Virus record (IMG/VR): IMGVR_UViG_3300025687_000001
Coordinates: 96,862 to 160,861 of that record
From: a virus
DNA: 64,000 nt
Direction: 5' to 3' (one strand)
Below, in pieces: positions 40,013 through 60,424 of this stretch; the stretch's first letter is position 1; each line of letters opens with the position of its first letter. A model generated the notes under the pieces. It saw only the letters and a program-made list of their open reading frames with translations. It ran no database searches and had not been told where the DNA came from. The position numbers and the translations under genes are program-made.

Positions 40013-40213
40013 ATGTCTGACGATACGCCGCACTACGAAAGCCAAGACCGATTTCGCTACAAAGTACTTGTGGGCGAGTGGCGAGACCCCGGAGCGCTAG
40101 TGAAGCGCCTCAACCACTTAGGTGCTAGGGGCTGGGAAGTAGTGCAGCTATCGGAGACTGATGGCGCGGTAACACGCGTGTACCTCAAGATGCTGGTGGA
40201 CGGTGAGCCCTAA
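40013..40213 (+). CDS. DUF4177-like small protein
   Basis: 66 residues. FRYKVLVGEWRDPGALVKRL then HLGARGWEVVQL and YLKMLV match the DUF4177 pattern, a small protein common in phages with unknown role. ATG 40013 or GTG 40010. Confidence 0.7.
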   Translation: MSDDTPHYESQDRFRYKVLVGEWRDPGALVKRLNHLGARGWEVVQLSETDGAVTRVYLKMLVDGEP

Positions 40214-40526
40214 GCGGCGCAGGGCCCTAGACAAAGTTCTAGCTGAGATCGACCAGTGCCCCGACATCCGCGCGAGCAAGTCCTCCCGGAGAGTGTCCGC
40301 AGGAGGTAAGCTACACGAGATTTTTCTCAGCTGGGACGACGATGAGCCGTGTCCTGCTGCGGTGTTGGTGACTCGAGAGAACCCGACTGGCGGCAGAGAG
40401 CTACTGCGGCCCTGCATGGGTGCTCCCGATGACTGGCACAAAACGTGGGCACGGTACTTAGTAGCGGTGTTTCGAGAGGCAGGGCGGGACACTACCGCGC
40501 CCCACTACCTGAATGTGCTATCATAG
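40203..40526 (+). CDS. Hypothetical protein
   Basis: 107 residues from GTG 40203. A basic helical N-terminus then KLHEIFLSWDDDEPCPAAVL, an alpha/beta core. No motif recognised. Confidence 0.6.
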   Translation: MSPKRRRALDKVLAEIDQCPDIRASKSSRRVSAGGKLHEIFLSWDDDEPCPAAVLVTRENPTGGRELLRPCMGAPDDWHKTWARYLVAVFREAGRDTTAPHYLNVLS

Positions 40527-40530
40527 CCGG

Positions 40531-40824
40531 ATGCAAAATCCTAGTTGTGATGTCTGTGCTGCCCTCGACAGAACCCATGTCCCCGTAGTCTTTGGGTACA
40601 AAGAGGGCTACGAGTACCCTCTGAAAACCATAGAGTTTAGGGACGCGCGTGTCTGCAGCACTGGATGCGCCGTTTCTTTAGCCTCGGATTTCCTACATCC
40701 GTCGTACACCTGGAGGGTAGAGATACACAGTGTTAGTGAACTTCAACAAAGCGCTGGACGCTCTGACACACCGCATGGAGACGCAGGGAGTAAAAACAGT
40801 GTGGAAGGAGACCAGCAAGCTTAA
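40531..40824 (+). CDS. Small Cys-rich protein
   Basis: 97 residues. CDVCAALDR and VCSTGCAVSLA are two Cys pairs in a MYM/zinc-ribbon-like layout; the last 30 residues overlap the next gene and may be unstructured. TCATAGCC before the ATG resembles the promoter box weakly. Confidence 0.55.
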   Translation: MQNPSCDVCAALDRTHVPVVFGYKEGYEYPLKTIEFRDARVCSTGCAVSLASDFLHPSYTWRVEIHSVSELQQSAGRSDTPHGDAGSKNSVEGDQQA

Positions 40825-41413
40825 CCAGCTTTTCGCCTGGTTCCTGAAACCGGTTAACCCTGACTACATGGCTCGCATGGTTACGACTATCGGGTCCACT
40901 ATTTACTGGCCTAAGCAACGCTGGGAAGAGGCTTACGCGTGGCAACGCTTTGCTACGCAAGCACACGAGATGCAGCACGTGCTAGACCACCGAAAGTACT
41001 GGTACGTGTATGTGTGGAGCTACCTGCTGCCCCAAGTAGCAGCGCTGTCGATATTTTTAGCCTTCGGCGCATTCTGGAATCCCCTCTGGTGGTTCAGCCT
41101 GTTTGGCCTGGTGTTTCTAATCCCTGGGATACCTAGCCCCAGGGCCTTTTGGGAACTACGCGCGTACAAGGTCAGCCACGCCATTTACAGCCTGAAAAAG
41201 GGCTACAACGACGGCGATTACGCTGACTACCTGGCGGAAGTATTCGCAGGGCCCAAGTACATGTGGATGTACCGGGACCGAGACCACATCGTGCAGAGTC
41301 TCACAGCTAGTACTGCTGCGGTGCTTCGAGGCGAGCCGGACCCGTCTATGCCGTGGCTTCGAGAGGTCATCGCAATCATAGAGGAGAATAGGTTAAAAGA
41401 GAGGGATGAATAG
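40730..41413 (+). CDS. Membrane zinc metallopeptidase-like protein
   Basis: 227 residues from GTG 40730. QAHEMQHVLDH (HExxH) is followed by two hydrophobic segments (YVYVWSYLLPQVAALSIFLA and WWFSLFGLVFLIPG) and RAFWELRAY, whose Glu could be the third zinc ligand. Substrate unknown; active-site placement near the membrane is inferred. Confidence 0.7.
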   Translation: MLVNFNKALDALTHRMETQGVKTVWKETSKLNQLFAWFLKPVNPDYMARMVTTIGSTIYWPKQRWEEAYAWQRFATQAHEMQHVLDHRKYWYVYVWSYLLPQVAALSIFLAFGAFWNPLWWFSLFGLVFLIPGIPSPRAFWELRAYKVSHAIYSLKKGYNDGDYADYLAEVFAGPKYMWMYRDRDHIVQSLTASTAAVLRGEPDPSMPWLREVIAIIEENRLKERDE

Positions 41414-41792
41414 TATGCGTTCTTCCTCGACAACCTACTTGGACTGCAACACGGTCCGTCTGACTGAGCTCAGCACTTCGGTCCAGCCGGAGCCCAAGAC
41501 CAGCGACAACTCCCGCAACGTAGCGTTTCAAGCTATGCAAGAGCTGAGGCAGTTGCACACGGCTGATTCGGTGGTCTCCATGCTAGACCAGCGCCGCGAG
41601 TTTGGGCGTCGGAAGTACGGGACTCCTCTGCTCAGCCACAATGGGCGCGACGCTAACTGCGATGCAGCGCAAGAGATGCTAGACGCGCTGGTCTACGTAA
41701 CCCAGGCTAAGATGGAAGGCCGGGACACTCGAGAGTTACTTCCCTTGGCCCAGACCCTGCTCAGGGTGGTCATCAGTGGGTGCGAAGAGTAA
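41406..41792 (+). CDS. MazG-like nucleotide pyrophosphohydrolase
   Basis: 128 residues. REFGRRKYGTPLL followed by DAAQEMLDALVYVTQAKME is the pattern of phage MazG/dATP-type pyrophosphohydrolases, where the Glu/Asp helix binds magnesium. Expected to hydrolyse (d)NTPs to monophosphates. It starts inside the metallopeptidase gene. Confidence 0.65.
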   Translation: MNSMRSSSTTYLDCNTVRLTELSTSVQPEPKTSDNSRNVAFQAMQELRQLHTADSVVSMLDQRREFGRRKYGTPLLSHNGRDANCDAAQEMLDALVYVTQAKMEGRDTRELLPLAQTLLRVVISGCEE

Positions 41793-42150
41793 CCCAACCG
41801 ACTACAAGCTTCCCCTCAACCTGGTAACAGCGCAAGCAGCGCTAGCAGCGTGTGGCTGGGAACCACACCTCTATCCTCGAGAGCCAATAGGCCAAGAGGA
41901 GCTAGTCTACTTTAGGATAAAGCAGCGGAATCCTTTCGCGGAGTTGCGGCTAAAGCTAAGCCTGGGCGATGACTGGTGCCGCATGTACTTCAGCGCTGTA
42001 TCGGACTTCCGAGGCCAGCCACCTAACTCGTACCAGCAGTACGCCTCCACAGAGAGGGTGGCTCACAGTATGGCGGAGTTTGTAGCGCACGCCACGCGCG
42101 TACCGCACGAGTACCTCTATGAGGGAAAGTATGTCAAAAACGTCCGTTGA
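41776..42150 (+). CDS. Array-family paralogue outside the main array
   Basis: 124 residues from GTG 41776. LVTAQAALAACGWEPHLYP and AELRLKLSLGDDW, then MAEFVAHATRVPHEYL. Overlaps neighbours by 17 and 20 nt. Confidence 0.65.
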   Translation: MGAKSNPTDYKLPLNLVTAQAALAACGWEPHLYPREPIGQEELVYFRIKQRNPFAELRLKLSLGDDWCRMYFSAVSDFRGQPPNSYQQYASTERVAHSMAEFVAHATRVPHEYLYEGKYVKNVR

Positions 42151-42445
42151 CCACCAAACCGCCCTGCTTGCACTGTCCTTGCACGGCTGGGAGACAGTAG
42201 AGCTCTCCAACGGAGGTAAATACCAACACCGTTTCGTGGGGGGCCAATACTACACGGTTAGCGTGGTCTCCCCGACCGCGCATCCAGGTCTCATGGAAGT
42301 CTTTGTTAGCAGCGCGACTAGGCTGTCTTCGAGGGCCGTTGACCTCGTAGCTCATGCTACGGTCTACAGTATCCCCGAGCTTCTAGGAACCACCGCCAAA
42401 AACCTAGAGGAGCACCGCCAAAAACCTAGAGGAGCACCTACATGA
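42131..42445 (+). CDS. Array-family paralogue outside the main array
   Basis: 104 residues from ATG 42131. HQTALLALSLHGWETVE, YYTVSVVSPTAHPGLMEVFV, and a helix VDLVAHATVY similar to the preceding gene (FVAHAT), so the two are sister copies. A 22-nt tandem duplication forms its tail. Confidence 0.65.
   Translation: MSKTSVDHQTALLALSLHGWETVELSNGGKYQHRFVGGQYYTVSVVSPTAHPGLMEVFVSSATRLSSRAVDLVAHATVYSIPELLGTTAKNLEEHRQKPRGAPT
42391..42434 (+). repeat. 22-nt tandem duplication carrying a ribosome site
   Basis: Two exact copies of a 22-nt unit starting CACCGCCAAAAACC and ending GAGGAG. The second GAGGAG is the ribosome site of the ATG at 42442. Confidence 0.85.
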
Positions 42446-42723
42446 ATGAGAACACAACCAGTGCTAGACGCGTAGGACTGACTCCTCTTTTAGCTCGCTT
42501 AGCCTGGTACTACGCGAAAAAGGGAGAGGGTCAGTACTACATCGACCACAAGGAATACGACAACGTCGTGGTGTCTCAGCGCTACGATTGGACCGTCGTA
42601 GACGGCGTGGGCCAGGGCTGCCTAGAAGTTTCGTTTCGCCTCGGTAGGGAGAAAATTCGTAGTATTGAGCTAGGTGTACACATTGTTGGGGCGAGAGGGG
42701 AGCCTCTAGTCCGGGAAACGTAG
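42442..42723 (+). CDS. Hypothetical, possibly array-family protein
   Basis: 93 residues. LTPLLARLAWYYAKKGEG, then strands VVVSQRYDWTVVDG and CLEVSFRLG. The C-terminal helix is missing. Confidence 0.55.
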   Translation: MNENTTSARRVGLTPLLARLAWYYAKKGEGQYYIDHKEYDNVVVSQRYDWTVVDGVGQGCLEVSFRLGREKIRSIELGVHIVGARGEPLVRET

Positions 42724-42727
42724 CGCA

Positions 42728-43123
42728 ATGGGTGTTGTGGCTTTTACAGTGCCGATCCTCTCTAGGATTTCCCACAACACTGCGCTGATGGACCTCTTCC
42801 TGGACATGGACCGGGACTTTCAGCTAGACCAGTTGCTCATAGCCGACCGCTACAAAAACGGCGTACTCAAGCTAGTACAGCTCCACAAGGAGCGGTTTGG
42901 GACGCAGGATGGCTGCACGCGTGACAGCCAGAATAAACTGCACTACTGGTGGTTTACGGACAGCGGATGCGTTGTTTACGTCAACAACCACCACGGCATC
43001 GACTTCCAGGTGCCTGCCTCCATGACCGCAGAAGAAGCCTTCGACGCCTGGCAGCGCTACCGGAGTCAGGTAGTTTGCTTGATTGGTGACGAGGATGGCG
43101 GGGACCCTGACTGGGTCAGCTGA
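42728..43123 (+). CDS. Hypothetical protein
   Basis: 131 residues. Acidic, with an N-terminal hydrophobic strand, NKLHYWWFTDSGCVVYV, and MTAEEAFDAWQRYRSQ near the end. No known motif. Confidence 0.6.
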   Translation: MGVVAFTVPILSRISHNTALMDLFLDMDRDFQLDQLLIADRYKNGVLKLVQLHKERFGTQDGCTRDSQNKLHYWWFTDSGCVVYVNNHHGIDFQVPASMTAEEAFDAWQRYRSQVVCLIGDEDGGDPDWVS

Positions 43124-43148
43124 ACGCGCAAATCCGTAGTTAAATTCA

Positions 43149-43157
43149 GGCATAAGT
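43149..43157 (+). promoter_or_regulatory. AGGCATAAGT promoter box
   Basis: TTCAGGCATAAGTAT with ATAAG at 43152, 8 nt before a 13-codon ATG frame at 43160. A second ATAAG (43208) follows. Confidence 0.5.
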
Positions 43158-43159
43158 AT

Positions 43160-43201
43160 ATGCGCACCCGAAAACTACATATGGCCTTACTATGGCCGTG
43201 A
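43160..43201 (+). CDS. Leader-peptide-sized ORF, 13 residues
   Basis: A basic 13-residue frame between two promoter boxes. It may be a leader or simply transcript sequence. Confidence 0.2.
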   Translation: MRTRKLHMALLWP

Positions 43202-43205
43202 GAAA

Positions 43206-43213
43206 GGATAAGT
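43206..43213 (+). promoter_or_regulatory. GGATAAGT promoter box
   Basis: ATAAG at 43208 is 10 nt before ATG 43218. Two boxes 56 nt apart suggest tandem promoters. Confidence 0.45.
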
Positions 43214-43217
43214 CGAC

Positions 43218-43451
43218 ATGGGCCTCGAAAGCCTGGAGTGCTGCGAGTACGACTTGGAGGGCCTGGTCAAGGACCCCGTCAAGGGTCTGACCCAGATCCT
43301 GGAGCTGGACTACGAGGTCCTCGGCGACCTCATTGAGGATCTCGAGTGGTGGCTCGAGAACCTCGAGGACGAGGAAATCCCCACCGCCAACAAGGTGTTC
43401 GCGGAGAGCCTGATCTCCGCGGCCCGTAAGCGCCGGGCGCAGCTCGCCTAA
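43218..43451 (+). CDS. Small highly acidic protein
   Basis: 77 residues. Long runs of Glu/Asp/Leu (DLIEDLEWWLENLEDEE) and a short basic end. A DNA-mimic-like charge pattern, as in several anti-defence proteins, is an inference. Strong GAG/CTC codon bias suggests high expression. Confidence 0.65.
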   Translation: MGLESLECCEYDLEGLVKDPVKGLTQILELDYEVLGDLIEDLEWWLENLEDEEIPTANKVFAESLISAARKRRAQLA

Positions 43452-47728: not shown

Positions 47729-49863
47729 CAGGCGCTGCCTTCGTCACTGTGCCGAGTCACCACGCCCATGTCCTCGCCGAAAGCGGAGCCGGCTTCAACG
47801 TCAGCAGCGTCAACAGCACCCACGATGTTGAAAGCTGCGTCGAAGACCGGCTCCGCTCGGCCGTCCCCTCCGCCCTCTAGTAGGACGTCGACCTGGTACT
47901 GCAACTCCGGTGTGGACGAAGTGCTAGAACCAATGCCGAAGAGAGTTTGGAAGATGCGGTAAGTATCTAGAGCTGCTTGCATGCTGGCGTCCCCAGCGAG
48001 GAAAGCAAGGCCACCAACGGTATCTTCGTCTCCGAACTTTGGCACGCGGTTGTCGGCTACGAAGTCCGTGAAGCTAGTTTTTTCTAGCCTTTCGGAGAGG
48101 CGCTCGCTGAGCGAAGCGTCGCCGTCTACGGGAGTGGGATCATTTAAGTTGCTCGCTGGGGCGTTCTGGACGCTGTCTTTTAGCACGTCCACCATGAACG
48201 CGTTGCCTCCGAGACCAAAGAAGCTCAGAGCGTGGAACCCTGCGCTGATGTTGAAAAGGTCTCGGACCATTGCCAGAAGGGCGTTTAGACGACGAGCAAG
48301 TGCAACCCACTTTTCTACCTCCGCTACCATGGAACTTACCAAATCAGAGAACAGCCCAGCTGTATCAACGGGTAGGTCTAACAGCTGGTTAAGCACAACT
48401 CGCAGCTCGTCAATGAGAGCCACTAGCCCTGCTGGTAAGAAGTCTGATACGCGGCCGGAGACCCAGTCCGGCGGGATACCCCCAGAGCTGGCGCCCCTTT
48501 CTTTAGGTAGTAGCACGCTAACTGGCGCAGAGAGAACCTCTACCTCGAAATCTGAGGTGAGGCTGGAGCTTAGCTTTTTCTTGTAGACGCGGCCCACCCG
48601 GTAGACCCACGTGTCACCCGCGTCTCCGGGTACGAAGTCTTCGTCGATGTACGTTTTGGACCAGAGGTCGGTATCCACGCGCGTACGCTCGAATGCTGCT
48701 ACGGGCTTGCCTCGGTCGTGGAACTTAACAAAGTCAGCAATGCCAGCAGCCCACTCAGCGCTAGCAGGGCTAGCAGTGTTGAGATCTTTAGTAGCGTACA
48801 GGATGTCGCGCTGCGGCTGCCAGGCCGGATAGTACCCAGAGAGCTTGAAGCTCACTTTGGGGCGGTCCCAGTGAGCAGCAGTCTTAGGCGCGTCCGTGGC
48901 AGACGCCAGAGCTTCTACGCGCAGCCCGGTGGGTGCCGGAGGCAGATCTAGCCCAGCGTTGCTACCAATGAAGTCCCCAAAGAGCGCTAAGAGGTCTAGC
49001 CACTTCTGGTGCAGCAGGCCGAGGTCCGTGCCTCCGTACACAATGATGATGCCGCCAACCCAGGCGTTGGAGCTGAGCTGCGGGCGTTCCAGATCGTCGA
49101 CGTCATTAAGAGAAGCTTCAAAGGTGTCAATGAAGCCGTTCATCCCTCCCCGGGAGGCCGTCTTATTCGCAGCAGTAGGAACCACGCCAGCACTAATACG
49201 ATTACGTATGTCGCTAGCAGAAGTAGAGTAAGAAGATCCGATACCGAGTGCGGATCCGACAGCCTCTCGAAGATTGACCGTTGTGGCCTCAAGTTTGGCC
49301 ACGCGTTTGGCAGCGTCAGGTCCGGGCGGGGCCTGAAGAGGCACACTAAGTGCGTAAACACCTGTAGTACCAGTAAAGAGCCCCAGGACATCCTCAATCT
49401 CCGCCTTCACTGCGTTGACAATGGCCGACAGCGCATCAACGCGAGCGAGCTGCGCTGCCTCTATAAGCTTGAGGATTGTTAGTACTGCTTCAAGCAGGGA
49501 CTTAACGGTGTTGACAATGTCTGCCAACGCATCAACGCCAGAGGCAAAGGCGTTGGGCAGCTTCAAGCTCAGTCCGTCCCACCGCCACGCTGCTACTGTG
49601 CTGTCCAGCACACCCAGCGCAGCAGTGAGAGCGTCGCCAGTCTCGTCAGCGATTACGCCCTGCTCTGCATTGCTATTGGTTACGGCAGCGTAGTTACGGT
49701 ATTGAGCGACCTCGAGAGCACGTTTCTCCGTGGCCAGCAACACGTCGTCAACAGCGATGCCGAAGACAGGCTTCATCTGCTGGTCAAACCCCACCCGCTG
49801 GGACTGGTTGGTCGGGTAGGAGTTCTTGCCTACGTTGTCTGGTTTGTAGGGTCGGCGGGCCAT
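47725..49863 (-). CDS. Large virion structural protein (tail or baseplate)
   Basis: 712 residues. N-terminal 200 residues helical with Leu/Ile/Val repeats, then a Pro/Gly-rich beta part with fibronectin-like patterns (PPAPTGLRVEAL; DTWVYRVGRVYKKKL), then a long helical segment. Size and position next to the spike gene suggest a baseplate or tail protein. No closer assignment. Confidence 0.6.
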   Translation of the reverse strand: MARRPYKPDNVGKNSYPTNQSQRVGFDQQMKPVFGIAVDDVLLATEKRALEVAQYRNYAAVTNSNAEQGVIADETGDALTAALGVLDSTVAAWRWDGLSLKLPNAFASGVDALADIVNTVKSLLEAVLTILKLIEAAQLARVDALSAIVNAVKAEIEDVLGLFTGTTGVYALSVPLQAPPGPDAAKRVAKLEATTVNLREAVGSALGIGSSYSTSASDIRNRISAGVVPTAANKTASRGGMNGFIDTFEASLNDVDDLERPQLSSNAWVGGIIIVYGGTDLGLLHQKWLDLLALFGDFIGSNAGLDLPPAPTGLRVEALASATDAPKTAAHWDRPKVSFKLSGYYPAWQPQRDILYATKDLNTASPASAEWAAGIADFVKFHDRGKPVAAFERTRVDTDLWSKTYIDEDFVPGDAGDTWVYRVGRVYKKKLSSSLTSDFEVEVLSAPVSVLLPKERGASSGGIPPDWVSGRVSDFLPAGLVALIDELRVVLNQLLDLPVDTAGLFSDLVSSMVAEVEKWVALARRLNALLAMVRDLFNISAGFHALSFFGLGGNAFMVDVLKDSVQNAPASNLNDPTPVDGDASLSERLSERLEKTSFTDFVADNRVPKFGDEDTVGGLAFLAGDASMQAALDTYRIFQTLFGIGSSTSSTPELQYQVDVLLEGGGDGRAEPVFDAAFNIVGAVDAADVEAGSAFGEDMGVVTRHSDEGSAC

Positions 49864-50049
49864 TTACTTAAGTTTAGTTTCCGCCTTCTTCAGCTCCAAC
49901 CTTGCCTGCTCCACCAGCTGAGTAATCCTGCCAGCCATGGCCTTCTGGATGACCTCGTTGGCCTTCTCTAGTGACTGGAGGGCGGGGGAGTCAAAGCCGT
50001 CCGGATTCTTGGTCCACTTAGCGTCTTCTACGGGGATTTTGGGGGTCAA
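49864..50049 (-). CDS. Small helical virion-cluster protein
   Basis: 61 residues. Charged amphipathic helix (LEKANEVIQKAMAGRITQLVEQARLELKKAETKLK). The stop is adjacent to the start of the 712-residue gene, so the two are probably co-translated. Confidence 0.6.
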   Translation of the reverse strand: MTPKIPVEDAKWTKNPDGFDSPALQSLEKANEVIQKAMAGRITQLVEQARLELKKAETKLK

Positions 50050-50059
50050 GAGAAGTCTC

Positions 50060-51676
50060 CTAGGTTGCTAAAGCTACAGACAAGGAAGCAATGGGAGTCA
50101 CAAGCCCCGACAGCGAAGGCGTGAAGGGCACAGCGGGAGTCCCGGTAGGCCCAGCGCTAGAGGGGTGCGTATGCGCGTCTAGTAGCAGGTGTAGCTGGTT
50201 GAGGTACGCCAGCAGCATGTTGTACTTGCACGCAGGGTCGCCGGGGCCTGTGGGGATTAGGCCTCCCGGAACTCCACCCAAGAGGACTCGAGGTGCGTTG
50301 AGTACGATGCCAAACGTGGCAGCCTTGCCTAGAGTAGACGGTACCCCCGTAACCGCGTTAACGACGAAGGAGCCGGCCTGGTTGATGGTGGCGAGTACAT
50401 CGCCCGTGTGCACGTCCAGTTTGATCGAGGGGTAGGAGGCGGGGTAACCGAGAGATCCCACAGCCGAAGTAGGGTTTCCCACATCGAGCTCGAAGTTTCC
50501 ATTGACTACCTCGATTTTCTTGCCTCGGACCTGGCCGGGGGTGGGGGTTACGTCTTTCTCTACGCGATACCCAGAGACGGTCTCGGTGCTGGTATGCGAC
50601 GCGGTAACGCTGAAGTCACCGGTAGAGATGCTGTGCTTAGTGCCGGACTGGTCTTGGATGCCCGAGCCAGCGGACCGGCTAACCGTAGTGGCCTTACGCG
50701 CGTAGGCCCCGCCGATTTCTTTAGTATCGTTGCCCCGGATGATTTCGTTGGCTTCCTGGCGGCTACGAGCTCCTGCAGTAGCCTTGGCTTTCTCGCGTTC
50801 GCTGATGGTGCGCCCCTCTATCTGGATGTCTCCAGCCGGCGACACGTTTAGCCCAGCAATGACGTTCTTTCCGGCGTCCAAGAAGCGCAAGTAGAACAGC
50901 GAGCCTGCCTCGCCCAGACCACACTCAATGTCCCAGTTTTCTCGAGTAGGGTGGGCTTCTCGGACGTTGGTAGCGCCTCTGAAACTCATCGAGGCCTTGC
51001 CGTTGTCCGACACTATCCGGAACTCACCCATGTCGGTGAAGAGCTCAAAGTTGCGAGCTACTACGCGGATGAGGTCCCCGAGCTTGAAACCCAGAATCTG
51101 AGCTAGGTCGCTAGCTCTGAAGATGTTGACTCCACCCTCGAAGACTCCGAGACCATTGCCGTCCCCAGCCTGTAGGAGCCAATCTCCGGGCCCGGCGTCC
51201 CGGCCCTGCCCCTCCGAGTAGTCAGCGCCCCCAGTACGTGAGAAAAGCGGGTCCTGCGCGCCTCCCAGGTCTTCGCGGGCTAGGGGCACTGCGGTAGTCT
51301 TGGCCACGTCGCCTACTGTAGTAGGAGTGCTAGACTCCCCGGACCCCGCTTGACGAGCTGCTCCTTCCCCCAGGTACCCGACAACGAAAGGAGATTCGCC
51401 GTCGATGCGAGAGGTGACCGCCACTGCTCCTGGTTTGGGGAGGTGGATTTGGCCCCCACGCAGGTCGGGGTCTAGAGCGGAGCGCATGATGGGAATAGAG
51501 TCTTTGACCGCACCGGACCCCAGGTACTGCAGGGTACAGGTGTGTGTTGCTGGGTCTACGGCTATTACGGTGGCCTTAGCGAAGCCTACAGGGTGCTCAA
51601 AGGTATCATCCGTAGACGGGACGGACGCTCTAGGCTGGTAGGTGCCTACTAAGGGCTTAGCGGGTCGGCGCTGCAT
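50060..51676 (-). CDS. Baseplate spike / hub protein (gpV/gp5-like)
   Basis: 538 residues. An OB-fold-like start at residues 30-105 (AKATVIAVDPATHTCTLQYL; GAVAVTSRIDGESPFVVGYL), a beta-rich repetitive middle, and a C-terminal LLLDAHTHPSSAGPTGTP, the His-containing tip motif of membrane-piercing spikes. Expected to sit under the tail tube as the puncturing tip. Confidence 0.75.
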   Translation of the reverse strand: MQRRPAKPLVGTYQPRASVPSTDDTFEHPVGFAKATVIAVDPATHTCTLQYLGSGAVKDSIPIMRSALDPDLRGGQIHLPKPGAVAVTSRIDGESPFVVGYLGEGAARQAGSGESSTPTTVGDVAKTTAVPLAREDLGGAQDPLFSRTGGADYSEGQGRDAGPGDWLLQAGDGNGLGVFEGGVNIFRASDLAQILGFKLGDLIRVVARNFELFTDMGEFRIVSDNGKASMSFRGATNVREAHPTRENWDIECGLGEAGSLFYLRFLDAGKNVIAGLNVSPAGDIQIEGRTISEREKAKATAGARSRQEANEIIRGNDTKEIGGAYARKATTVSRSAGSGIQDQSGTKHSISTGDFSVTASHTSTETVSGYRVEKDVTPTPGQVRGKKIEVVNGNFELDVGNPTSAVGSLGYPASYPSIKLDVHTGDVLATINQAGSFVVNAVTGVPSTLGKAATFGIVLNAPRVLLGGVPGGLIPTGPGDPACKYNMLLAYLNQLHLLLDAHTHPSSAGPTGTPAVPFTPSLSGLVTPIASLSVALAT

Positions 51677-51697
51677 GACGAAATACTACATGATTCA

Positions 51698-51705
51698 GGT
51701 ATAAG
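51698..51705 (+). promoter_or_regulatory. AGGTATAAG promoter box
   Basis: TTCAGGTATAAG with ATAAG at 51701, 10 nt before ATG 51711; divergent from the spike gene. Confidence 0.55.
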
Positions 51706-51710
51706 GAAGT

Positions 51711-52997
51711 ATGCCAATCAACGATGACGAGCTGGTCAGGTCGACCAGACGTCGATACAATAAGCTTGTTTTGGAGTTATCGGCCCTGGAAGGGCCGTAC
51801 TCCGTGCTGATCTCGCGCCGAGAGGCGCTCAACGCCGAGATATCGGCGGCTGAGGCCAAACTCGAGCAGGTACGCACGCAGATTCGCGCACTGCATGACG
51901 TCATGGCCTCGTTTGGCGAGGAGGAGTTGCCTCCGCCTCCTGCTCGCACCGTCCAGGAAGTCGCTGCTCCCGAGCCACCACCAAGCTCGGCCGCGGAGAA
52001 TCCTTGGGCGTCGTTTGTGGTGCCAACGGTTTCTACGTTGGTGCCTCAGGCTCCGCCGCAGCCCGTCCCTGCCAGGCTCAAGAAGCCCGCTGCGCCGGTA
52101 GTTCCTCGCGCTACTCCAATTGCACCCGAGGAGTGGCCTACGCAGGCGTCTCAGGAGCCGCAGGAGTCCCCGGAGCCCAAGGCTACGCCAGCAGCGGGGG
52201 CGTGTCCCCGGTGCCACGAAGCCACCGGGCTCTCCAAGAAGGCTACGCGGCGTGAGCTGCGCAAGTTCTGTCGGTCGTGCGTCAACGCGGCGGACACGTT
52301 CCTGCGGCGTAACAAGCTGCCTGCTTTCTTGGCGGGGCAGTACCTCCTGGAGGTACCTTCGCAGAAGGTTGAGCGGGCTAGCCTCGTGCGCGAGCTGGGC
52401 GTAGCGTTCCTCCAGCGGCTCGATGTCATGCCGCTGATAAGCACCCGGGAGACCTACACGGGCCACGTACCGCCGCTTCGTACGAAGAAGGGGGAGCCGG
52501 AGAAGCCAGCAGCGCCTTCAACCCCACCCGCCCGGCAGCGCAAGAGCCCGCACCCCGATGACATCCGGGCCGCGGCAGCTCTAGTGGCTGAAGGCTCGAC
52601 GTGGGAAGAGGTAGCGAAGTTCCTGGGGATCTCCGTGCTGGCGCTGCAGGAATATGTGGCGGAGCTGGAGAAGATAGTTCCTCCGGAGGAGCCGCTGGTC
52701 GTTCCGGAAGTTCTGGAAGCCGAAGCGGAAGTTCCGGCCCCGGCGGAGAGCGCTAAGCTCAATTACACCGAGCTGGTGTTGCAGTACATGCGAAACCACC
52801 CGAGGGCCAGCTACATGGCGGCGGACGTGGCTAACCGCGTGCTGCCGGGCAAGGTCAACCGGAAGGAGATCAGCACCGTCCGGAAGATCCTCGAGGACAT
52901 GGTTCACTCCGGTGTGCTACACCGTAACAGCAACAGCGGCGGGCGCGGCGTGACCTACACCATCCGCCTTCCGCCCTCGAACCGAAAGGCGGGTTGA
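51711..52997 (+). CDS. DNA-binding regulator with coiled coil, zinc site, HTH and winged helix
   Basis: 428 residues. A coiled coil at about 5-70, a Pro/Ala linker, a Cys4 site (CPRCHEATG then FCRSCVN) near 163-195, an HTH-like segment (WEEVAKFLGISVLALQEYV) near 300, and a winged-helix-like end (YMAADVANRVL; ISTVRKILEDMVHSGVLHR). Its layout and isolated promoter suggest a transcription factor; target unknown. It interrupts the minus-strand structural block. Confidence 0.65.
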   Translation: MPINDDELVRSTRRRYNKLVLELSALEGPYSVLISRREALNAEISAAEAKLEQVRTQIRALHDVMASFGEEELPPPPARTVQEVAAPEPPPSSAAENPWASFVVPTVSTLVPQAPPQPVPARLKKPAAPVVPRATPIAPEEWPTQASQEPQESPEPKATPAAGACPRCHEATGLSKKATRRELRKFCRSCVNAADTFLRRNKLPAFLAGQYLLEVPSQKVERASLVRELGVAFLQRLDVMPLISTRETYTGHVPPLRTKKGEPEKPAAPSTPPARQRKSPHPDDIRAAAALVAEGSTWEEVAKFLGISVLALQEYVAELEKIVPPEEPLVVPEVLEAEAEVPAPAESAKLNYTELVLQYMRNHPRASYMAADVANRVLPGKVNRKEISTVRKILEDMVHSGVLHRNSNSGGRGVTYTIRLPPSNRKAG

Positions 52998-53310: not shown

Positions 53311-53685
53311 TTAGCGAGTCAGTTTCTGCCAGGCGCTGTCACCTTCACGCGAGATGGCGGAGCCCTTGGCGGCGCCGTAAGTGCCCCCCAGGCCAGCACC
53401 TAGCAGACCGGCCAGCATTGCGCCTCTCCCCCCTCCAGCGAGGCCTCCCAGCGCTCCCGCCCCCAAGCCGCCTGCGGCCCCTCCCAAGAGACCGCCGCCC
53501 GTCATATGCCCCCACCGGCTCAAGCCTCGACCCTCAGGAGCATTAAACGCTGCGAGCAGAGGCCCGCCTAACAGCGCGTTCCCTACGTCCGTGGAATCAA
53601 TGTCGGCAGCCGCCTTAACAACCCCAGCATCAATCAGCGCCTGCTGCGCGCCAACGTCGTATGCCTGCTTAAGAAACGGGTTCAT
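53311..53685 (-). CDS. Glycine-zipper virion protein with FLKQAY module (1)
   Basis: 124 residues. MNPFLKQAYDVGAQQALIDA begins with the shared N-terminal module, then a helix and long Gly/Ala/Leu stretches (GGGLLGGAAGGLGAGALGG). Glycine-zipper proteins often insert in membranes during DNA injection. Ribosome site GGAGCTAAA is 5' of the ATG. Confidence 0.65.
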   Translation of the reverse strand: MNPFLKQAYDVGAQQALIDAGVVKAAADIDSTDVGNALLGGPLLAAFNAPEGRGLSRWGHMTGGGLLGGAAGGLGAGALGGLAGGGRGAMLAGLLGAGLGGTYGAAKGSAISREGDSAWQKLTR

Positions 53686-53694
53686 TTTAGCTCC
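53656..53694 (-). repeat. 39-bp direct repeat, copy A
   Basis: Carries the ribosome site and first ten codons of the 53685 gene; identical to 53732-53770. Confidence 0.9.
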
Positions 53695-53698
53695 TAAA

Positions 53699-53761
53699 CT
53701 ACAGATTTTCTTCTTTGACTAACGAGTCAGTGTCGTATGCCTGCTTAAGAAACGGGTTCAT
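53699..53761 (-). CDS. Mini-gene carrying only the FLKQAY module
   Basis: 20 codons: MNPFLKQAYD then TDSLVKEENL and stop. Made by the 39-bp duplication with its own ribosome site. May be a free copy of the module or duplication debris. Confidence 0.4.
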   Translation of the reverse strand: MNPFLKQAYDTDSLVKEENL

Positions 53762-53770
53762 TTTAGCTCC
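53732..53770 (-). repeat. 39-bp direct repeat, copy B
   Basis: Exact copy of 53656-53694, 76 bp away. Confidence 0.9.
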
Positions 53771-53772
53771 AG

Positions 53773-54450
53773 TTAGAAACCAATTGCATCGTCGATGGCG
53801 TCCGAGCCCTGGTGGCCGTCCTGCTTAGCGCCGGGGTCCCACGGGAGAAGCCTATCACACATGCCGGAGACGTTCTCCATGATCATGTTCTGCCCGGCGT
53901 TAAGCCCAACAGTCCACTGGTTCATGCAGCACAGCTCTAGGTAAAATCCCCCCAAAGTGTTGTGGCTCTTGTCGCGGAAAGCGATAGCCATCCCGAAGGG
54001 GATGAGCAGAAGCTCCGAGTCAAGGTTAACGAAGTAATCTGTTTGCTTTCCGCGAGGGTGAATGGGCTCATCGAAAGTATCCGGGTCTACCCCGGCTTCG
54101 ATAGCATTACGGTACAGAGCCTTCACCATGTTACGGCCCTTAACGAAGAGCCGCCCCATCTGCCAGGTTAGCGAGCTTTTACCCGATAGGAAAAAGCTGC
54201 GCCCCGACCCGATGGTCTGCACAGGCACGGTAGGCTTAGCCTGCGCCACCTGGAACGCTTGCATCATGCCCACGGCGTACAGCTTGCGCCCCGCAACGTT
54301 GTCGTTGCGCAGCTTCATGCGCGGAGGACCAATCATGACGAGAGTGTCATCCGGGTGCGCGGCTGTGTAGGCCGCGTTGTCCATGATACGCTCTACGTAC
54401 TGGTCCTGGTAGAGCCACGAGTTGAGGTCCTCGGTTACCTTATCAGCCAC
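53773..54450 (-). CDS. Virion protein, tail-tube candidate
   Basis: 225 residues. Beta-rich with SGRSFFLSGKSSLTWQMGRL, FGMAIAFRDKSHNTLGGFYL and AGQNMIMENVSGMCDRLLPW. Size, fold pattern and position two genes after the sheath suggest the tail tube. Overlaps the upstream gene by 8 nt. Confidence 0.55.
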   Translation of the reverse strand: MADKVTEDLNSWLYQDQYVERIMDNAAYTAAHPDDTLVMIGPPRMKLRNDNVAGRKLYAVGMMQAFQVAQAKPTVPVQTIGSGRSFFLSGKSSLTWQMGRLFVKGRNMVKALYRNAIEAGVDPDTFDEPIHPRGKQTDYFVNLDSELLLIPFGMAIAFRDKSHNTLGGFYLELCCMNQWTVGLNAGQNMIMENVSGMCDRLLPWDPGAKQDGHQGSDAIDDAIGF

Positions 54451-54931
54451 GGTTGTCCTCCGGGTTCATTTCCTTGAGACGCTGGCGGTACCAGTGGGTC
54501 CCGTAGCCGCTGCCTCCAAGGCTACCTAGGATTGCGGGAAGCGCAATCATCTTTGCTCTAGTGTCGTCGCTCAGGTCTGCGCCGAGAGCGTTAGCGAGGG
54601 CGCCTGCGCCCCAGCCTCCAAAAGCGCCTCCGAGGGCTCCTAGCGCTCCACCGCCGATACCCGCACCGGTACCTCCGACAGCGTGCATGATGCGGTCATT
54701 GGGCGCCGTAGCCCCGCTAACGATGCCTCCAGCAAGGGGGCTCAGCAGAGCGCTGGCGGCCGGAGCAGCGTAATCGCCTGCGGTGACCAGCGCGTTTTGC
54801 CCTTTGGGCTTAGCCTTGGGCTTGGACTCAGACTTAGGCTTCTTTTTAGCCTCGTCGTCGGACTTTGCCGCGAACTTCTGGAAGTCCTCCAGCGCCTGCC
54901 GGGCCCCTAACTGGTAAGCAACGTGAAGCAT
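54443..54931 (-). CDS. Glycine-zipper virion protein with module variant (2)
   Basis: 162 residues. The N-terminus HVAYQLGARQALEDFQKFA is a diverged module, followed by a Lys/Ser/Pro linker and Gly/Ala membrane-like segments (GGTGAGIGGGALGALGGAFG). The start overlaps the sheath stop. Confidence 0.6.
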   Translation of the reverse strand: MLHVAYQLGARQALEDFQKFAAKSDDEAKKKPKSESKPKAKPKGQNALVTAGDYAAPAASALLSPLAGGIVSGATAPNDRIMHAVGGTGAGIGGGALGALGGAFGGWGAGALANALGADLSDDTRAKMIALPAILGSLGGSGYGTHWYRQRLKEMNPEDNRG

Positions 54932-57294
54932 TACTGCGACACCAGGTGCACAATGAGTTTGTTGAGTACCTTGGGCAGCGTTACCTCAACATAGGTCTCC
55001 ATGGCGGAGCTGTCCGCAGCGGAGGCGCCGATGCTGCTGATCTTGCCGCTAAGCAGCGGCGACCCGATCTTCGGACGGAAGTCGGTTCGCAGGCTCTCGA
55101 TGGCGGAGTTGATGGTGTCGCTGACCGAGTTGACAGCCTCAGGGATGAAGTTCCACACACCAACGAACGGCTCCAGCCGGCCTTTCATGACCAGGGAGAC
55201 GTAATCGAAGTTGCGAACCACGCTGAGCTCTGCATACTCCTGAACGCCAGGGTTGTCGATCTGGCCCGTGGTGACCTGGTGCACAACGTAAGGCAGGCCA
55301 GCAACGCTGTCCTGGACAAAGACGTAGTACCCGCCGTCACCGAGAGCATCGATCTCGTCGTCCGAGAAGTGCAGGTTGGTGTCGAAGACCTGCTCGACGC
55401 CAGCAATGCCAATCTGGTTGAAGGGCTGATGCGGCGCCAGCGAGGCGTTCATGCCCCCCACAGCAGCCGCCAGGTAGTACGCCGGGAGCCCGGTAGTGCC
55501 GAGCACCTTGCAGCTACCCGCGTACACCATGGTGAGGCGCTTGCTGCCAGCGCTAGCAATGCGAGCAAGGAGCTCGTCCTTTTGCTGGGTTGTGCTGGAG
55601 CTAATGCTGCGCTGGACGGTGTAGGTAAGGCTGTTAGCGGTCTCAGCAACCTCGCCCCCACCAACGTCGGTGATGGTGAGCGCGTTCTCGTTGACTACAG
55701 CGGAAACAACGTAGGTCTCGCCGCCAGTGACAACAAGGGTGTCTCCTACGACCACGCCATCAGTAACAAACTGCGCGTTGAGATCAGAGAAGGTCCCTGG
55801 GTTCCCAGCGACCACCGATCCAGTATCCGTCTCCGCCCCCAGCACCGGGCCAACATATTTGAAGCTAGGCAGCCCAGCACTGGCACCGATGACGTGGCGG
55901 AAGTTGCCCTTCTCAGGAGCCGACTGCGCAACCGCGGCATTCTTAAAAGGAGCAATGACGTTAGCCAAATCCGTGCTCAGGGGCACTATGCAGTAGATGC
56001 TCTTGTTGGCGTTGATCTTCGACCGAGCAGCGGTGTACCCGGCAGTGTCGTCGCTGGCGATGGCCAGGCACTGCAGGTTGGTAGCGCCAGCGTTGCTAAG
56101 CGCCACGTACATGGCCAGGCCGAGAGGGTTCTTGTGGTGAACCTTCCCGATGTCAGCGAACTCGTTGTTCGAGGGGATGCTCGAGTGCGTGATGAAGTCG
56201 GCCAGATTGTTGATAAGGCCCCGGGCCTCGACCTGAACCGTGGCGCGGGTGACTACGGCTGTGCCCTCAGGGACGGCCATGGAAATCTGGTTGTTACCGC
56301 CACCTCCGAGGACAATATTGGTGTCGTCGAAGGCCACCTCTCCGGCAGGGACGGCCCAGCCGGGTGCGTTGCCGTTGGTGCTGGCCGCGAGGGAACGCTC
56401 GATGTAGCAGGAGGCCCGGCTGCCTGCGTCGTTGCTGGTCTTGAAGCGAAGATTTGCAGCCACAACCAGCTCTGTTTGGCTAGAAACAGACTGGACCGCC
56501 ACTGCGACCGGGACGTGCTTCAGAAGACTCGCCCTCTGATCCACGACGGCGAGAGCGCCGATGGTGTACCCGAACCGGGAATCCCCGCCACCAGAGTCCG
56601 CGTTCAGCTCCGCCCCCGCCAGAGTGTCAAAAACACCTCCAGCGCCGTCTGCGTCTGCCAGCAGGAGGCGGTTGTCATCGATTACCTGAAGCACCGTAAA
56701 GGCCCCGGCACCGACAGCATCAAGAACCGTAGAGTCGTTCTGCGTATTGTTGAACGTAACGACGTCCCCCACGGACACATCCGTCAGGAACGCGGCGGAC
56801 GCGTCTAGGTCCACCAGTACCTGAGGCATGTTGGACTGGATTACAACCTTGTCCCCGATCTTAACACCCCCTGCGGGGCTAGTGCTGGAGAGGTCGGCCG
56901 CTGCGAAAGTCAGCGTGTGCGCGTCCGCGCCAATGGTAACGTCATTGGCAGCGATGTCATTCTTTACTAGGTAGTAAACGGCCTCGAGGAACGCAGCCGG
57001 AGGGTGGTCCCCCGCAGTGTCGATATCGTGCTCAGCCCCAAACCCAAACGCAGACCACGCAATCGTGCTCGCCGGGCCATCCGGGTCAGGCCATGCTCCG
57101 GCGGTAATGGTGAACGAGTTATCCCCCCACCCTCCGGAACCATTAGGAGCGTAAGCAACGCCCGCCCCGCGGTTCTCGGGATACTCGACCACCTTGTAAG
57201 CGGGGCCCACGATGCACGTAGACAGGTCGGGGTTTGCCGGAGTCAGAATGACGTTGGCAACTTCCTGTCGGATTTCAACTAAAGGACGCGGCAT
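54931..57294 (-). CDS. Contractile tail sheath protein
   Basis: 787 residues. The N-terminal segment (PANPDLSTCIVGPAYKVVEY) and C-terminal VWNFIPEAVNSVSDTINSAI then ESLRTDFRPKIGSP have the typical sheath arrangement; the middle carries beta insertions that make it longer than T4 gp18. A good host-type promoter lies upstream. It should contract around the tube. Confidence 0.75.
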   Translation of the reverse strand: MPRPLVEIRQEVANVILTPANPDLSTCIVGPAYKVVEYPENRGAGVAYAPNGSGGWGDNSFTITAGAWPDPDGPASTIAWSAFGFGAEHDIDTAGDHPPAAFLEAVYYLVKNDIAANDVTIGADAHTLTFAAADLSSTSPAGGVKIGDKVVIQSNMPQVLVDLDASAAFLTDVSVGDVVTFNNTQNDSTVLDAVGAGAFTVLQVIDDNRLLLADADGAGGVFDTLAGAELNADSGGGDSRFGYTIGALAVVDQRASLLKHVPVAVAVQSVSSQTELVVAANLRFKTSNDAGSRASCYIERSLAASTNGNAPGWAVPAGEVAFDDTNIVLGGGGNNQISMAVPEGTAVVTRATVQVEARGLINNLADFITHSSIPSNNEFADIGKVHHKNPLGLAMYVALSNAGATNLQCLAIASDDTAGYTAARSKINANKSIYCIVPLSTDLANVIAPFKNAAVAQSAPEKGNFRHVIGASAGLPSFKYVGPVLGAETDTGSVVAGNPGTFSDLNAQFVTDGVVVGDTLVVTGGETYVVSAVVNENALTITDVGGGEVAETANSLTYTVQRSISSSTTQQKDELLARIASAGSKRLTMVYAGSCKVLGTTGLPAYYLAAAVGGMNASLAPHQPFNQIGIAGVEQVFDTNLHFSDDEIDALGDGGYYVFVQDSVAGLPYVVHQVTTGQIDNPGVQEYAELSVVRNFDYVSLVMKGRLEPFVGVWNFIPEAVNSVSDTINSAIESLRTDFRPKIGSPLLSGKISSIGASAADSSAMETYVEVTLPKVLNKLIVHLVSQ

Positions 57295-57332
57295 GAGTAG
57301 ACTCCGCTAGGTAAACGGTCTTCGTCAGTGAA

Positions 57333-57360
57333 ATTATAGGGGGGCTCTGTAGCCCAGCAA
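57333..57360 (-). promoter_or_regulatory. Sigma70-type promoter for the sheath operon
   Basis: On the minus strand TTGCTG, 16 nt, TATAAT, 39 nt before the sheath start. A perfect -10 box is unusual in this window. The spacer contains a GGGCT/AGCCC hairpin. Confidence 0.6.
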
Positions 57361-57373
57361 CCCCGCGAGATAA

Positions 57374-58021
57374 CTACTCCCCCAAATCCACTCTAGCCAG
57401 GCTATCAAACGCCAGCTGGTGGTAATCAACGTTGTTGGAGTGGGTGATACGAGTGTCGAGGCTTTGGATCTTCCGGGCTACCGGGCGCTCCGCCCACTTG
57501 ACGTCGAACGAGATCTCCGAAGTTACGCGCGTAGAGTAGAGCCGGTTGTCCTTCTCCCAGACCGTGGTGGGCCCCAGCGTAATCGGCGTATTGTCGCGGA
57601 TGTTGTAAACGCGGAGGATCTCGTTGGAGCTCATCAGCAGGAAGCCCTGCACAATGTCACCCAGGACAGCGCTCTCTCCTCGGTTGCTCGAGACGCAGTC
57701 CACCAGGATTTGCCCGTTACCTACGCAGTAGTACCCCTTGAGACCCGTGTGGTTCTGCTGGCCCGCAAAGTCACCCACCGTGACCTGGGGAAAGATGATG
57801 GCAGCGCGGTCTACGTAAAGAGCCGGACGAGCGTCGTTTTTCTTTAGCTCATCGCCCGCGCCAGCTTCGATGTAGATGCGAGAGAGGTGGTCCTCCTCGT
57901 TGTAGAACCACTGAAAGGTCTCTCCAGGCGAAGAGAACCGCTCACGCAGCGTAGCTAGGTAAACCCCGATGATGTGGAGAGGGGATTTGACGAGGACGTA
58001 TGGGTGTTCGGTGGCGGGCAC
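57374..58021 (-). CDS. Virion neck/tail protein
   Basis: 215 residues. SPLHIIGVYLATLRERFSSP at the start, then WFYNEEDHLSRIYIEAG and a beta core. In the position of tail-terminator or neck proteins between sheath and connector genes. Assignment by position. Confidence 0.5.
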   Translation of the reverse strand: MPATEHPYVLVKSPLHIIGVYLATLRERFSSPGETFQWFYNEEDHLSRIYIEAGAGDELKKNDARPALYVDRAAIIFPQVTVGDFAGQQNHTGLKGYYCVGNGQILVDCVSSNRGESAVLGDIVQGFLLMSSNEILRVYNIRDNTPITLGPTTVWEKDNRLYSTRVTSEISFDVKWAERPVARKIQSLDTRITHSNNVDYHQLAFDSLARVDLGE

Positions 58022-58024
58022 AGG

Positions 58025-58384
58025 CTACTCCCGCATGGCTTTCTCTGTAACGGCACCTGTTAGGGCGCCGCCGAGAATGCCTCCTCCTAGCACCGGCAGA
58101 CCAACAAGCTCGAACATATCAGAGTCCGGCATCCGCTTAGCCCACCGACCCAGGGCCAAGGCGGTAGCAGCGCCCCCTAGGCCTGCGCCTATAGTTGTCC
58201 CGGCCGGGTACGGTGTGTCGCTGTCCTTCTTGTAACTGGCGTAGCCCATAAGCCCGGCCCCAGAGCCCCCTCCGAGGAGAGCGGCAACCAGGTTGGGGTT
58301 GTCCCCCACCCAGGACCGGAACCCTGCTTCCTTAACCGCCAGCTCTACGCCCGCCTCGTAGGCCCGTTTGAGGAAGTAGTTCAT
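58025..58384 (-). CDS. Glycine-zipper virion protein with FLKRAY module (3)
   Basis: 119 residues. MNYFLKRAYEAGVELAVKEA heads an otherwise Gly/Ala-rich, three-segment membrane-like protein. It overlaps the next gene by 4 nt, as part of the structural operon. Confidence 0.65.
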   Translation of the reverse strand: MNYFLKRAYEAGVELAVKEAGFRSWVGDNPNLVAALLGGGSGAGLMGYASYKKDSDTPYPAGTTIGAGLGGAATALALGRWAKRMPDSDMFELVGLPVLGGGILGGALTGAVTEKAMRE

Positions 58385-59172
58385 TCGGTCAAATCCAGTT
58401 CAACAGCGTAAGCAGCGTCAGCGCGGCTTAGCTCGCTGATCTGCAAATCTTGGTGCACCGTGATCCTGCTGGACTCGGTGGGGATTTTTTGCCTGACGAT
58501 GAAGCGCCGGTTAGTGCGCATCTCCACCAGGACGTCTTCGGGCTCCATCAAAGGATAGTCCAACATGGTAGCACTGAACATAGCACTATCAGTGAGACCA
58601 GTGTTGTCAGCGCGCTGGCTGACTACTGCGGGGTCTAGCTTAGCCCAGATAGTGACGGGGTCGTGGTAGCCGCCGTCGAAGCTGGTGCCGTAGCACTTCC
58701 CACAAGAGCTGAGTACTACGTCTTTAGTGCGGGGGTTGTAGCAGACCGAGCAGCGAGTACCGAACCGCTTGCGCTTGAGAGCTACCAGCTTTACGCCATT
58801 GAGCTTGCGTAACTGGATGTCCAGGTCTCTGCGAGCTTTGCGACCAATACGGCCACGCCACTTGTCTTCCTGGTGAAAGACTGTTTGCGGCGCTGACGCT
58901 GCTGCGTTGTCTGGCCCTGTCTCGGGGATGGCCTGGACAATGTACCAGGCCCGGTTGGTAAGGTTGAGCTGCGGGACGGGCTGGTCCATGTAGAAGAAGT
59001 TGTTGTCGCGAACCTCTTCTTCGGAGACCTGCTCGAAGGGGCCGGTAGGAGACCCGGACCTAAAAATCTTGAAGGTGTAGGGTGTGTTGTCGGGGTTCTC
59101 CATCGTCCACTGGATGAAGACCTCGTGGGGGTAGACGGGCAGTACGCGCGTAATGGTGATTTTGGCGGCCAT
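58381..59172 (-). CDS. Virion protein with FN3-like and zinc domains
   Basis: 263 residues. Residues 1-95 read as a fibronectin-III-like domain (YTFKIFRSGSPTGPFEQVSE; AWYIVQAIPE). A central CSVCYNPRTKD and CGKCYG forms a Cys4 site. The C-terminal part is beta-rich. Probably a neck or head-tail connector protein. Confidence 0.6.
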   Translation of the reverse strand: MAAKITITRVLPVYPHEVFIQWTMENPDNTPYTFKIFRSGSPTGPFEQVSEEEVRDNNFFYMDQPVPQLNLTNRAWYIVQAIPETGPDNAAASAPQTVFHQEDKWRGRIGRKARRDLDIQLRKLNGVKLVALKRKRFGTRCSVCYNPRTKDVVLSSCGKCYGTSFDGGYHDPVTIWAKLDPAVVSQRADNTGLTDSAMFSATMLDYPLMEPEDVLVEMRTNRRFIVRQKIPTESSRITVHQDLQISELSRADAAYAVELDLTE

Positions 59173-59597
59173 CAGTCCTCAGTAAGTAGCTTACCTATCC
59201 CCCACCCAGCCCCCGCTCCGGCCCCCAGACCTAGGAGGCCAAGCAGAGATCTGGGTCTTCCTATGTACCTGCCGTGATTCACATCGCGGAAGGCTTCCCC
59301 ACCCTGCACGGATTTACGTAGGTAATGTTGTATTTTGGCGTCATTCGGGTCTATGTCACCCTTAGTTAAGGGCTCTTGTATCCAATTTTCGTACGCCCGG
59401 TCTAGGTTAGAAGCGCCCAGGGACGCTCCTGCCATAGCTGCGGGTACCCCCACCATTGGGGCCCCGATTAATGCTCCTAAGTACGCATCTTTATTATCCT
59501 CATCCATACCCCGGGAGACGTGGCTTAGCATACCCGCCTCCTTAACCGCCAACTCAACCCCAGCAGCGTAGGCCTGCTTCAGGAACTCACTGTTCAC
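59172..59597 (-). CDS. Glycine-rich virion protein with FLKQAY module (4)
   Basis: 141 residues. FLKQAYAAGVELAVKEAGML, a polar middle with an acidic loop, and a Gly/Ala end (LLGLGAGAGAGWGIGKLL). The module is almost identical to that at 58384. Confidence 0.65.
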   Translation of the reverse strand: MNSEFLKQAYAAGVELAVKEAGMLSHVSRGMDEDNKDAYLGALIGAPMVGVPAAMAGASLGASNLDRAYENWIQEPLTKGDIDPNDAKIQHYLRKSVQGGEAFRDVNHGRYIGRPRSLLGLLGLGAGAGAGWGIGKLLTED

Positions 59598-59633
59598 GGT
59601 TCGCTCCTAGTGCTGGTAAAGCAATAGCTGGCA

Positions 59634-59951
59634 TCAGAAGGAGGACACTATATCTGACAAGCCCCACCCAAACTGCCCCCAAGGAGACTTCGCCTCATGG
59701 ATAGTTCTCCCAGATAGGCCAGCAAGCCTAGACAGCCCATACCCGGCTCCCGCGCCGATAGCTCCCCCCGCTAAACCTCGCCCCAGGGCTTCCCCAGGAC
59801 TATCCGCAGAGGCTACCCCCACGCTAGCGCCTAGGCCACCCCCTAACACAGGGACAACGGCGTTAGGGTTGCGTAGGAAGTTACCCACCCCGGCCTCCTT
59901 CAGTGCCATAGCGCATCCGGCCTCGTAGGCCTGCTTTAGGAAGTCATTCAT
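59634..59951 (-). CDS. Glycine-zipper virion protein with FLKQAY module (5)
   Basis: 105 residues from ATG 59951. MNDFLKQAYEAGCAMALKEA, then Gly/Ala segments (LGGGLGASVGVA; GLAGGAIGAGAGYG). Overlaps the next gene by 4 nt. Confidence 0.65.
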   Translation of the reverse strand: MNDFLKQAYEAGCAMALKEAGVGNFLRNPNAVVPVLGGGLGASVGVASADSPGEALGRGLAGGAIGAGAGYGLSRLAGLSGRTIHEAKSPWGQFGWGLSDIVSSF

Positions 59952-60424
59952 ATGTGGTACCACCCCCGCCAAAGGGGCGACCTAATGAATCCGCTAGCAG
60001 CCATGTTAGACGCGATCTTCATCTGCGAGACATGAGCCCGGAACTCCTGCTTGAGAGACCCCGCTAGCTGCAGGTACTGACCGTACTTGTCATCAATGCC
60101 CACGGGCTGGATGTTGCCGTCCTGGTAGCTGGCCTGGTTGCGCAGCTGACGGAAGGCCTCGCTCTGCATGAGGTAGTGAGCGGCCCCCGTTAGAAGCACA
60201 TACTTGTTAGGGAACGTAGCAGAAGTCCAGTTAGTGGCGCGATCCACAACATTGGCAATGTCCACAGCGCGGTCGATGGCGGTAGCGAGCTCAGTGTCAG
60301 AGAACTCTACGTCATCGAGCAGGGGGTTGTGGCCAGTGTAGTCCCGCAGAAAGTCACGCACCTCTGTTGTCGAGATGATTCCCGCGGGTGCTGGTGACGC
60401 TACTGGAGTTGCTACTACTGGCAT
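59948..60424 (-). CDS. Head-completion/connector-type protein
   Basis: 158 residues. TTEVRDFLRDYTGHNPLLDD followed by DTELATAIDRAVDIAN is the helical pattern of phage head-tail adaptors. Position fits. Pattern-based call. Confidence 0.5.
   Translation of the reverse strand: MPVVATPVASPAPAGIISTTEVRDFLRDYTGHNPLLDDVEFSDTELATAIDRAVDIANVVDRATNWTSATFPNKYVLLTGAAHYLMQSEAFRQLRNQASYQDGNIQPVGIDDKYGQYLQLAGSLKQEFRAHVSQMKIASNMAASGFIRSPLWRGWYHI

Follow-up and report, generated by a model that had tools for sequence, protein, structure and literature searches.

Why should several otherwise different late proteins of one virus begin with nearly the same 20 residues? The window analysed here is a stretch of 64,000 nucleotides, bases 96862-160861 of a 160,861-base virus contig (genome label G000), in which the late genes lie on the minus strand. 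A sequence-only reading had reported that the ORFs starting at 53685, 58384, 59597 and 59951 share almost the same N-terminus and that the protein starting at 54931 carries a diverged form of it; its label of virion proteins for them was an assumption. We found all four on the minus strand, with profile scores of 55-61 bits, and the diverged form as well. The leader-bearing ORFs of the window are the following (window coordinates).

59634..59951, minus strand: leader protein 1, 105 aa; ATG start (alternative start TTG at 59972); leader MNDFLKQAYEAGCAMALKEAG at about 59889-59951, then a glycine-zipper payload.
59172..59597, minus strand: leader protein 2, 141 aa; GTG start; leader MNSEFLKQAYAAGVELAVKEAG.
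58025..58384, minus strand: leader protein 3, 119 aa; ATG start; leader MNYFLKRAYEAGVELAVKEAG.
54443..54931, minus strand: leader protein 4, 162 aa; ATG start; diverged leader MLHVAYQLGARQALEDFQKFA, of the form MLHVAYQLGARQALEDFQ; between the sheath-like and tube-like genes.
53311..53685, minus strand: leader protein 5, 124 aa; ATG start; leader MNPFLKQAYDVGAQQALIDAGVVKAA.
53699..53761, minus strand: truncated leader ORF, 20 aa, MNPFLKQAYDTDSLVKEENL followed by a stop codon.

A search of the whole 160.9-kb contig, which the same reading had proposed, raised the number of N-terminal leader copies to 12, with seven outside the window in addition to the five within it; the truncated ORF is a thirteenth copy.

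Contig 16131, 19001, 19671, 19902, 50758, 95080 and 95312: starts of the seven leader genes outside the window.

All 12 copies are on the late strand (hypergeometric P 4e-5). Occurrence on early, non-virion proteins had been named as evidence against a virion tag, and in the window's genome the module was found on none of the 96 early-strand genes. A profile built from the four similar window leaders scored eight further N-terminal sites of the contig at 11-36 bits, compared with a best score of 6.8 bits in the reversed contig. A few of the weakest of these eight overlap other matches in score, and all of them are clear with a profile built from the whole set (HMM, 37-49 bits). The pattern [AS]Y..G...A matched 12 times in 5,600 N-terminal residues versus 4 times in 40,852 other residues. 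The profile scores and the pattern counts together established that the module is N-terminal and far above chance, and ruled out chance similarity. Four residues, A, Y, G and A, are the same in all 12 aligned leaders, giving the core A-Y-x-x-G-x-x-x-A. Employing tblastn, we found no match to two leaders and one whole tagged protein among the INPHARED phages; a degenerate DNA pattern of the module gave a single unrelated match in viral contigs, and a profile search of the PDB with the leader returned chance-level matches only.

Behind each leader a different glycine-zipper protein had been reported. This is true of the five window proteins (16-28% Gly) but not of the genome as a whole, since the payloads outside the window include an acidic protein of 386 residues, a charged one of 218, one of 76 and a Cys-rich one of 83. 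The glycine zipper was thereby ruled out as the defining shared feature. In tblastn comparisons among the tagged proteins, similarity was mainly confined to the leaders; the exception was leader protein 3, which matched leader protein 1 over 58 residues.

The tagged genes of the window sit in its neck/tail region, next to the conserved window genes listed below; the last four entries are genes elsewhere on the contig. The names sheath-like, tube-like and neck-like are taken from gene order, size and homology to genes of Salmonella phage Arash annotated only as 'structural protein'; a literature search for a paper on Arash found none, and the basis of these annotations was not found.

Window 59948..60424, minus strand: neck-like core protein, which leader genes adjoin; homologues in G003, G017, G024 and Arash; name inferred from order and homology.
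Window 58381..59172, minus strand: core structural-type protein separating leader genes 2 and 3; homologues in G003, G017, G024 and Arash; PHROG 2806 (unknown function).
Window 54931..57294, minus strand: sheath-like core protein, 787 aa; homologue of Arash gp236 'structural protein'; name inferred.
Window 53773..54450, minus strand: tube-like core protein, 225 aa; homologue of Arash gp237 'structural protein'; name inferred.
Contig 3769-4707: capsid gene, homologous to the capsid gene of Arash.
Contig 7216-8988: head maturation protease gene.
Contig 20389-24735 and 16896-18677: split multisubunit RNA polymerase.
Contig 28184-29911: portal, weak match.

Judging from synteny with Arash, the contig probably starts within a continuous late region, and the head cluster at its low end seems to be resumed at its high end. 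Two leader genes follow a 2222-residue mosaic protein (contig 95309-101977, minus strand; window 1-5116 and before) with GNAT acetyltransferase and LigD 3'-phosphoesterase domains, two repeated domains that are perhaps papain-like, and K-T-S/G near some domain borders; it is possibly a packaged multi-enzyme protein.

A search of relatives for the module had also been suggested. We found relatives in IMG/VR by way of the RNA polymerase, about 40% identical; the sheath-like protein as bait yielded none. They are unannotated metagenomic contigs, for which gene calls were made in the present analysis. In most of them other than G003, an operon runs from the RNA polymerase through genes A, B, C and D, with leaders at the head of the consecutive genes A, B and C; because the relatives are not mutually independent, per-genome counts of this kind overstate the number of separate events. 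The N-terminus of gene A resembles MYQYGYNAALRQLGLEKNAAFF, that of gene B MNPELIKQAYAYGAAVALQELGFSAQQAQAGGVKLASEK and that of gene C MGLFKQAHVRGIAHELMRSGILTFPSEKMAEDVADEVADN. Gene C is the orthologue of contig 14971-16131. The type A leader, a shortened and looser form, is less certainly related to the module of the window. Most genomes have a glycine zipper as the payload of the same gene B leader, and two have a disordered one. In one gene-B protein (L120, G012:311-388), two leader copies, IKKAYIYGVGVALGEAG... and YDAYIEGASVALVNAG..., stand in tandem.

The genome G003 carries six leaders on other payloads, including a glycine zipper, a Cys-rich protein and a pyrophosphatase-like domain, the last named from reading of the sequence, with no database match. 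A homologue of this domain in G008 has no leader. In G009 (4814-9784) an RNA polymerase subunit contains an inserted pyrophosphatase-like domain, flanked by KKA and EKTAA.

At the tail loci, a leader-type glycine-rich protein lies at the junction of the sheath-like and tube-like genes in G000, G017 and G024, the match being loose in the latter two. Two leader genes separate the neck-like gene from the core gene that comes next in G000, none does so in G017 and G024, and in G003 two leader genes with other payloads adjoin the neck-like gene. The tube-like gene occurs twice in G003 (42498-43286 and 11552-12331), the second copy following a leader gene directly, in another operon. In these arrangements the tagged genes look like inserts within a cassette that is itself conserved. 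G017 also has two neighbouring late proteins (39043-39807 and 39832-42402) with a common N-terminus of another kind, MKK[TS]A-x-Q-I-A, which may be a second leader type. The module was not found in Arash, a distant isolated relative. In the relatives, leaders are kept behind the polymerase and between the two tail genes while the payloads change. With 12 copies on mostly unrelated payloads, payloads that differ at syntenic loci and restriction to the late strand, the proposal of a portable N-terminal tag is well supported. Its assignment to injected membrane proteins was too narrow, because tagged payloads are also acidic, charged, Cys-rich and pyrophosphatase-like.

In the gene B protein, AlphaFold predicted with confidence that the leader folds as a helical hairpin (helices 3-20 and 25-44; block pLDDT 81, 92, 93 and 87), with an unreliable payload (mean pLDDT 58). 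The small residues A-x-x-x-G-x-x-x-A would lie on one face of helix 1, which fits close helix packing.

The region behind the leader core points to a possible processing signal. We counted K-[TVI]-A in the head clusters of four genomes (contig 3769-16896 of the window's genome, and those of G003, G002 and G007), with expectations from within-protein shuffles, and observed 125 versus 23 expected, about fivefold. Replacing K with R gave 14 versus 19, replacing the final A with S gave 10 versus 10, and the reversed tripeptide gave 31 versus 23. An artefact of composition or of helices was ruled out by the shuffles, by the other first and third residues and by the reversed tripeptide. In G000 the excess is found in the head cluster (32 versus 5.6) and in an island at contig 49425-51755 (5 versus 0.6), while tail, neck and early genes are near background; the neck/tail region with the window's tagged genes has 5 versus 3.9. 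Arash prefers K-[EQSV]-A. It shows the K-x-A enrichment yet lacks the leader, so heads of this type can do without it.

The head protease (contig 7216-8988) is homologous to Arash gp222 and matches the profile phrog_18299 (E 1.6e-10, residues 57-211). H100 and S151-M-G are invariant in 11 homologues, as expected of a serine protease, and a catalytic role of H100 and S151 is a plausible assignment. K-V-A is invariant at 220-222 of this family, just beyond the point where the PHROG protease match ends (211-217), and K-[ELQ]-A is invariant near residue 30 in the N-arm of ten capsid proteins. The predicted model of the protease was poor (pLDDT 41.8), and a sequence search of the PDB gave no match. 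Within 23 residues after the leader core, K-x-[AS] occurs in 14 of 18 leaders, compared with 12% of control windows taken from the same proteins and with an expectation of 4.6 leaders after shuffling; the other four have none. Three window proteins have K-E-A at the module's own end, and the variants KEA, KFA and KAA of the window leaders are not the preferred ones in this genome. On these statistics and this conservation, the simplest reading of K-[TVI]-A, or K-x-A, is that of a candidate recognition motif of the head protease. The motif may be new and appears to be undescribed, as far as a limited literature search allows.

Put together, the leader would be a portable N-terminal tag of the capsid-targeting type that loads many late proteins into the particle and is possibly trimmed by the head protease, a reading whose chances we consider evenly balanced. 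A role in packaging or docking explains the findings best, because the relatives carry leaders on conserved genes of the head operon, because K-x-A then follows, and because this type of motif is concentrated in head genes. In the scheme we propose, a short A-Y-x-x-G-x-x-x-A helix, in relatives helix 1 of the predicted hairpin, is fused to a dozen different late proteins, which would in this way enter the particle under assembly, probably the prohead. One common docking partner, for example a core or scaffold protein, would receive all tagged cargoes. Once the cargo is inside, it may be released by the head maturation protease through a cut at the K-x-A found behind most of the helices, and it could later be injected.

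How the leader spread is suggested by a 39-bp exact direct repeat beside the gene of leader protein 5.

53656..53694, minus strand: copy 1; ribosome-binding site, start codon and first ten codons of leader protein 5.
53732..53770, minus strand: copy 2, 76 bases upstream; heads the truncated 20-codon leader ORF.

Duplication of gene 5' ends, together with their ribosome-binding sites, is the probable way in which leaders have spread. As the repeat contains a ribosome-binding site, the shared element could act on the DNA or mRNA, as a translation enhancer or recombination site, with the peptide as a by-product. We regard this as very improbable: the DNA of the other leader copies differs at wobble positions and in the upstream regions while the peptide is kept, so that selection appears to act on the peptide, and the protein-level conservation extends to relatives about 40% identical in the polymerase. 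A DNA-level element is disfavoured by the same wobble differences. The partial duplication beside gene 53685 likewise shows that duplication occurs, and plain paralogy is a further alternative reading: a small gene duplicated repeatedly, its C-terminal parts diverged or replaced, and its helix kept for folding or membrane insertion and not as an address. Most payloads are indeed small glycine-rich proteins, and leader proteins 1 and 3 match beyond the leader. Paralogy is nevertheless unlikely in our judgement, given that acidic, Cys-rich and pyrophosphatase-like payloads also carry leaders, that payloads have been swapped at the same locus with the leader kept, and that the pyrophosphatase-like domain stands without a leader in G008.

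The neck/tail position of the window's tagged genes keeps another reading alive, in which the helix docks to the tail, neck or membrane and not to the head, either anchoring accessory proteins on tube, sheath or neck or entering the host membrane together with the glycine zipper. Neck and tail genes surround all five window genes, several genomes retain the leader locus at the sheath-like/tube-like junction, and glycine-zipper payloads suggest membrane contact. Against docking to tail or neck stand the conserved leader genes A-C of the relatives, which are in the head operon behind the RNA polymerase, and the leaders beside the 2222-residue protein and in the K-[TVI]-A-rich island; a purely membrane role is at odds with leaders on soluble payloads. 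We consider such docking quite unlikely. The capsid-targeting-type tag can be extended, more tentatively, to the uncultured clade with a multisubunit RNA polymerase as a whole. This clade might have its own cargo-loading code, in which glycine-zipper proteins and enzymes reach the particle by means of a transferable A-Y-x-x-G-x-x-x-A helix or hairpin that a head protease of K-[TVI]-A (K-x-A) specificity trims, with few such genes in most relatives and amplification to a dozen here.

If these readings are true, the leader marks from sequence alone which of dozens of unknown proteins travel in the particle, and provides a testable list of packaged, perhaps injected, proteins in otherwise unannotated genomes. 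Phage heads could be loaded with foreign proteins by using it as a new modular address, and K-x-A would give the first predicted processing map of this clade's heads.

In bacterial microcompartments, encapsulation peptides, which are short helices at protein termini, bring different enzymes into the protein shell. They are not viral, and we know of no trimming of them by a head protease; they are alike in loading by a short helix, and no sequence relation is claimed. In T4 the prohead protease gp21 cuts after Glu. T4 head proteins have capsid-targeting propeptides of 10-20 residues, later removed (PMC5694885). As with the T4 internal proteins, Alt and gp24, where removal is probably by the head protease after incorporation (PMC5694885), a short N-terminal leader is found on several different late proteins of one phage, here in 12 copies. 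Different from T4 are the A-Y-x-x-G-x-x-x-A helix, which extends up to a hairpin of about 40 residues, the candidate site K-x-A, and the twelve tagged genes, many with glycine-zipper payloads. The first 30 residues of P1 DarB suffice to bring the protein, and a reporter, into the head, and the N-termini of the Dar proteins are without consensus (PMC9024508), whereas the leader described here is plainly shared. In SPN3US and other phiKZ-type phages the head protease cuts N-terminal propeptides, two of those of SPN3US being only 20-24 residues long, for which a targeting role has been proposed, and removes its own C-terminal propeptide (PMC10052503, PMC5694885). Cleavage there is after A-x-E-type sites (such as AVE-79, ALE-111 and AQE-203; PMC5694885) and not at K-x-A; most of those propeptides are far longer, and no shared leader motif has been described for them. 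Most likely the leader works like the targeting sequences of T4 and P1, in a new form that we do not count as a member of either system since the predicted site differs, and for which no sequence relation is claimed.
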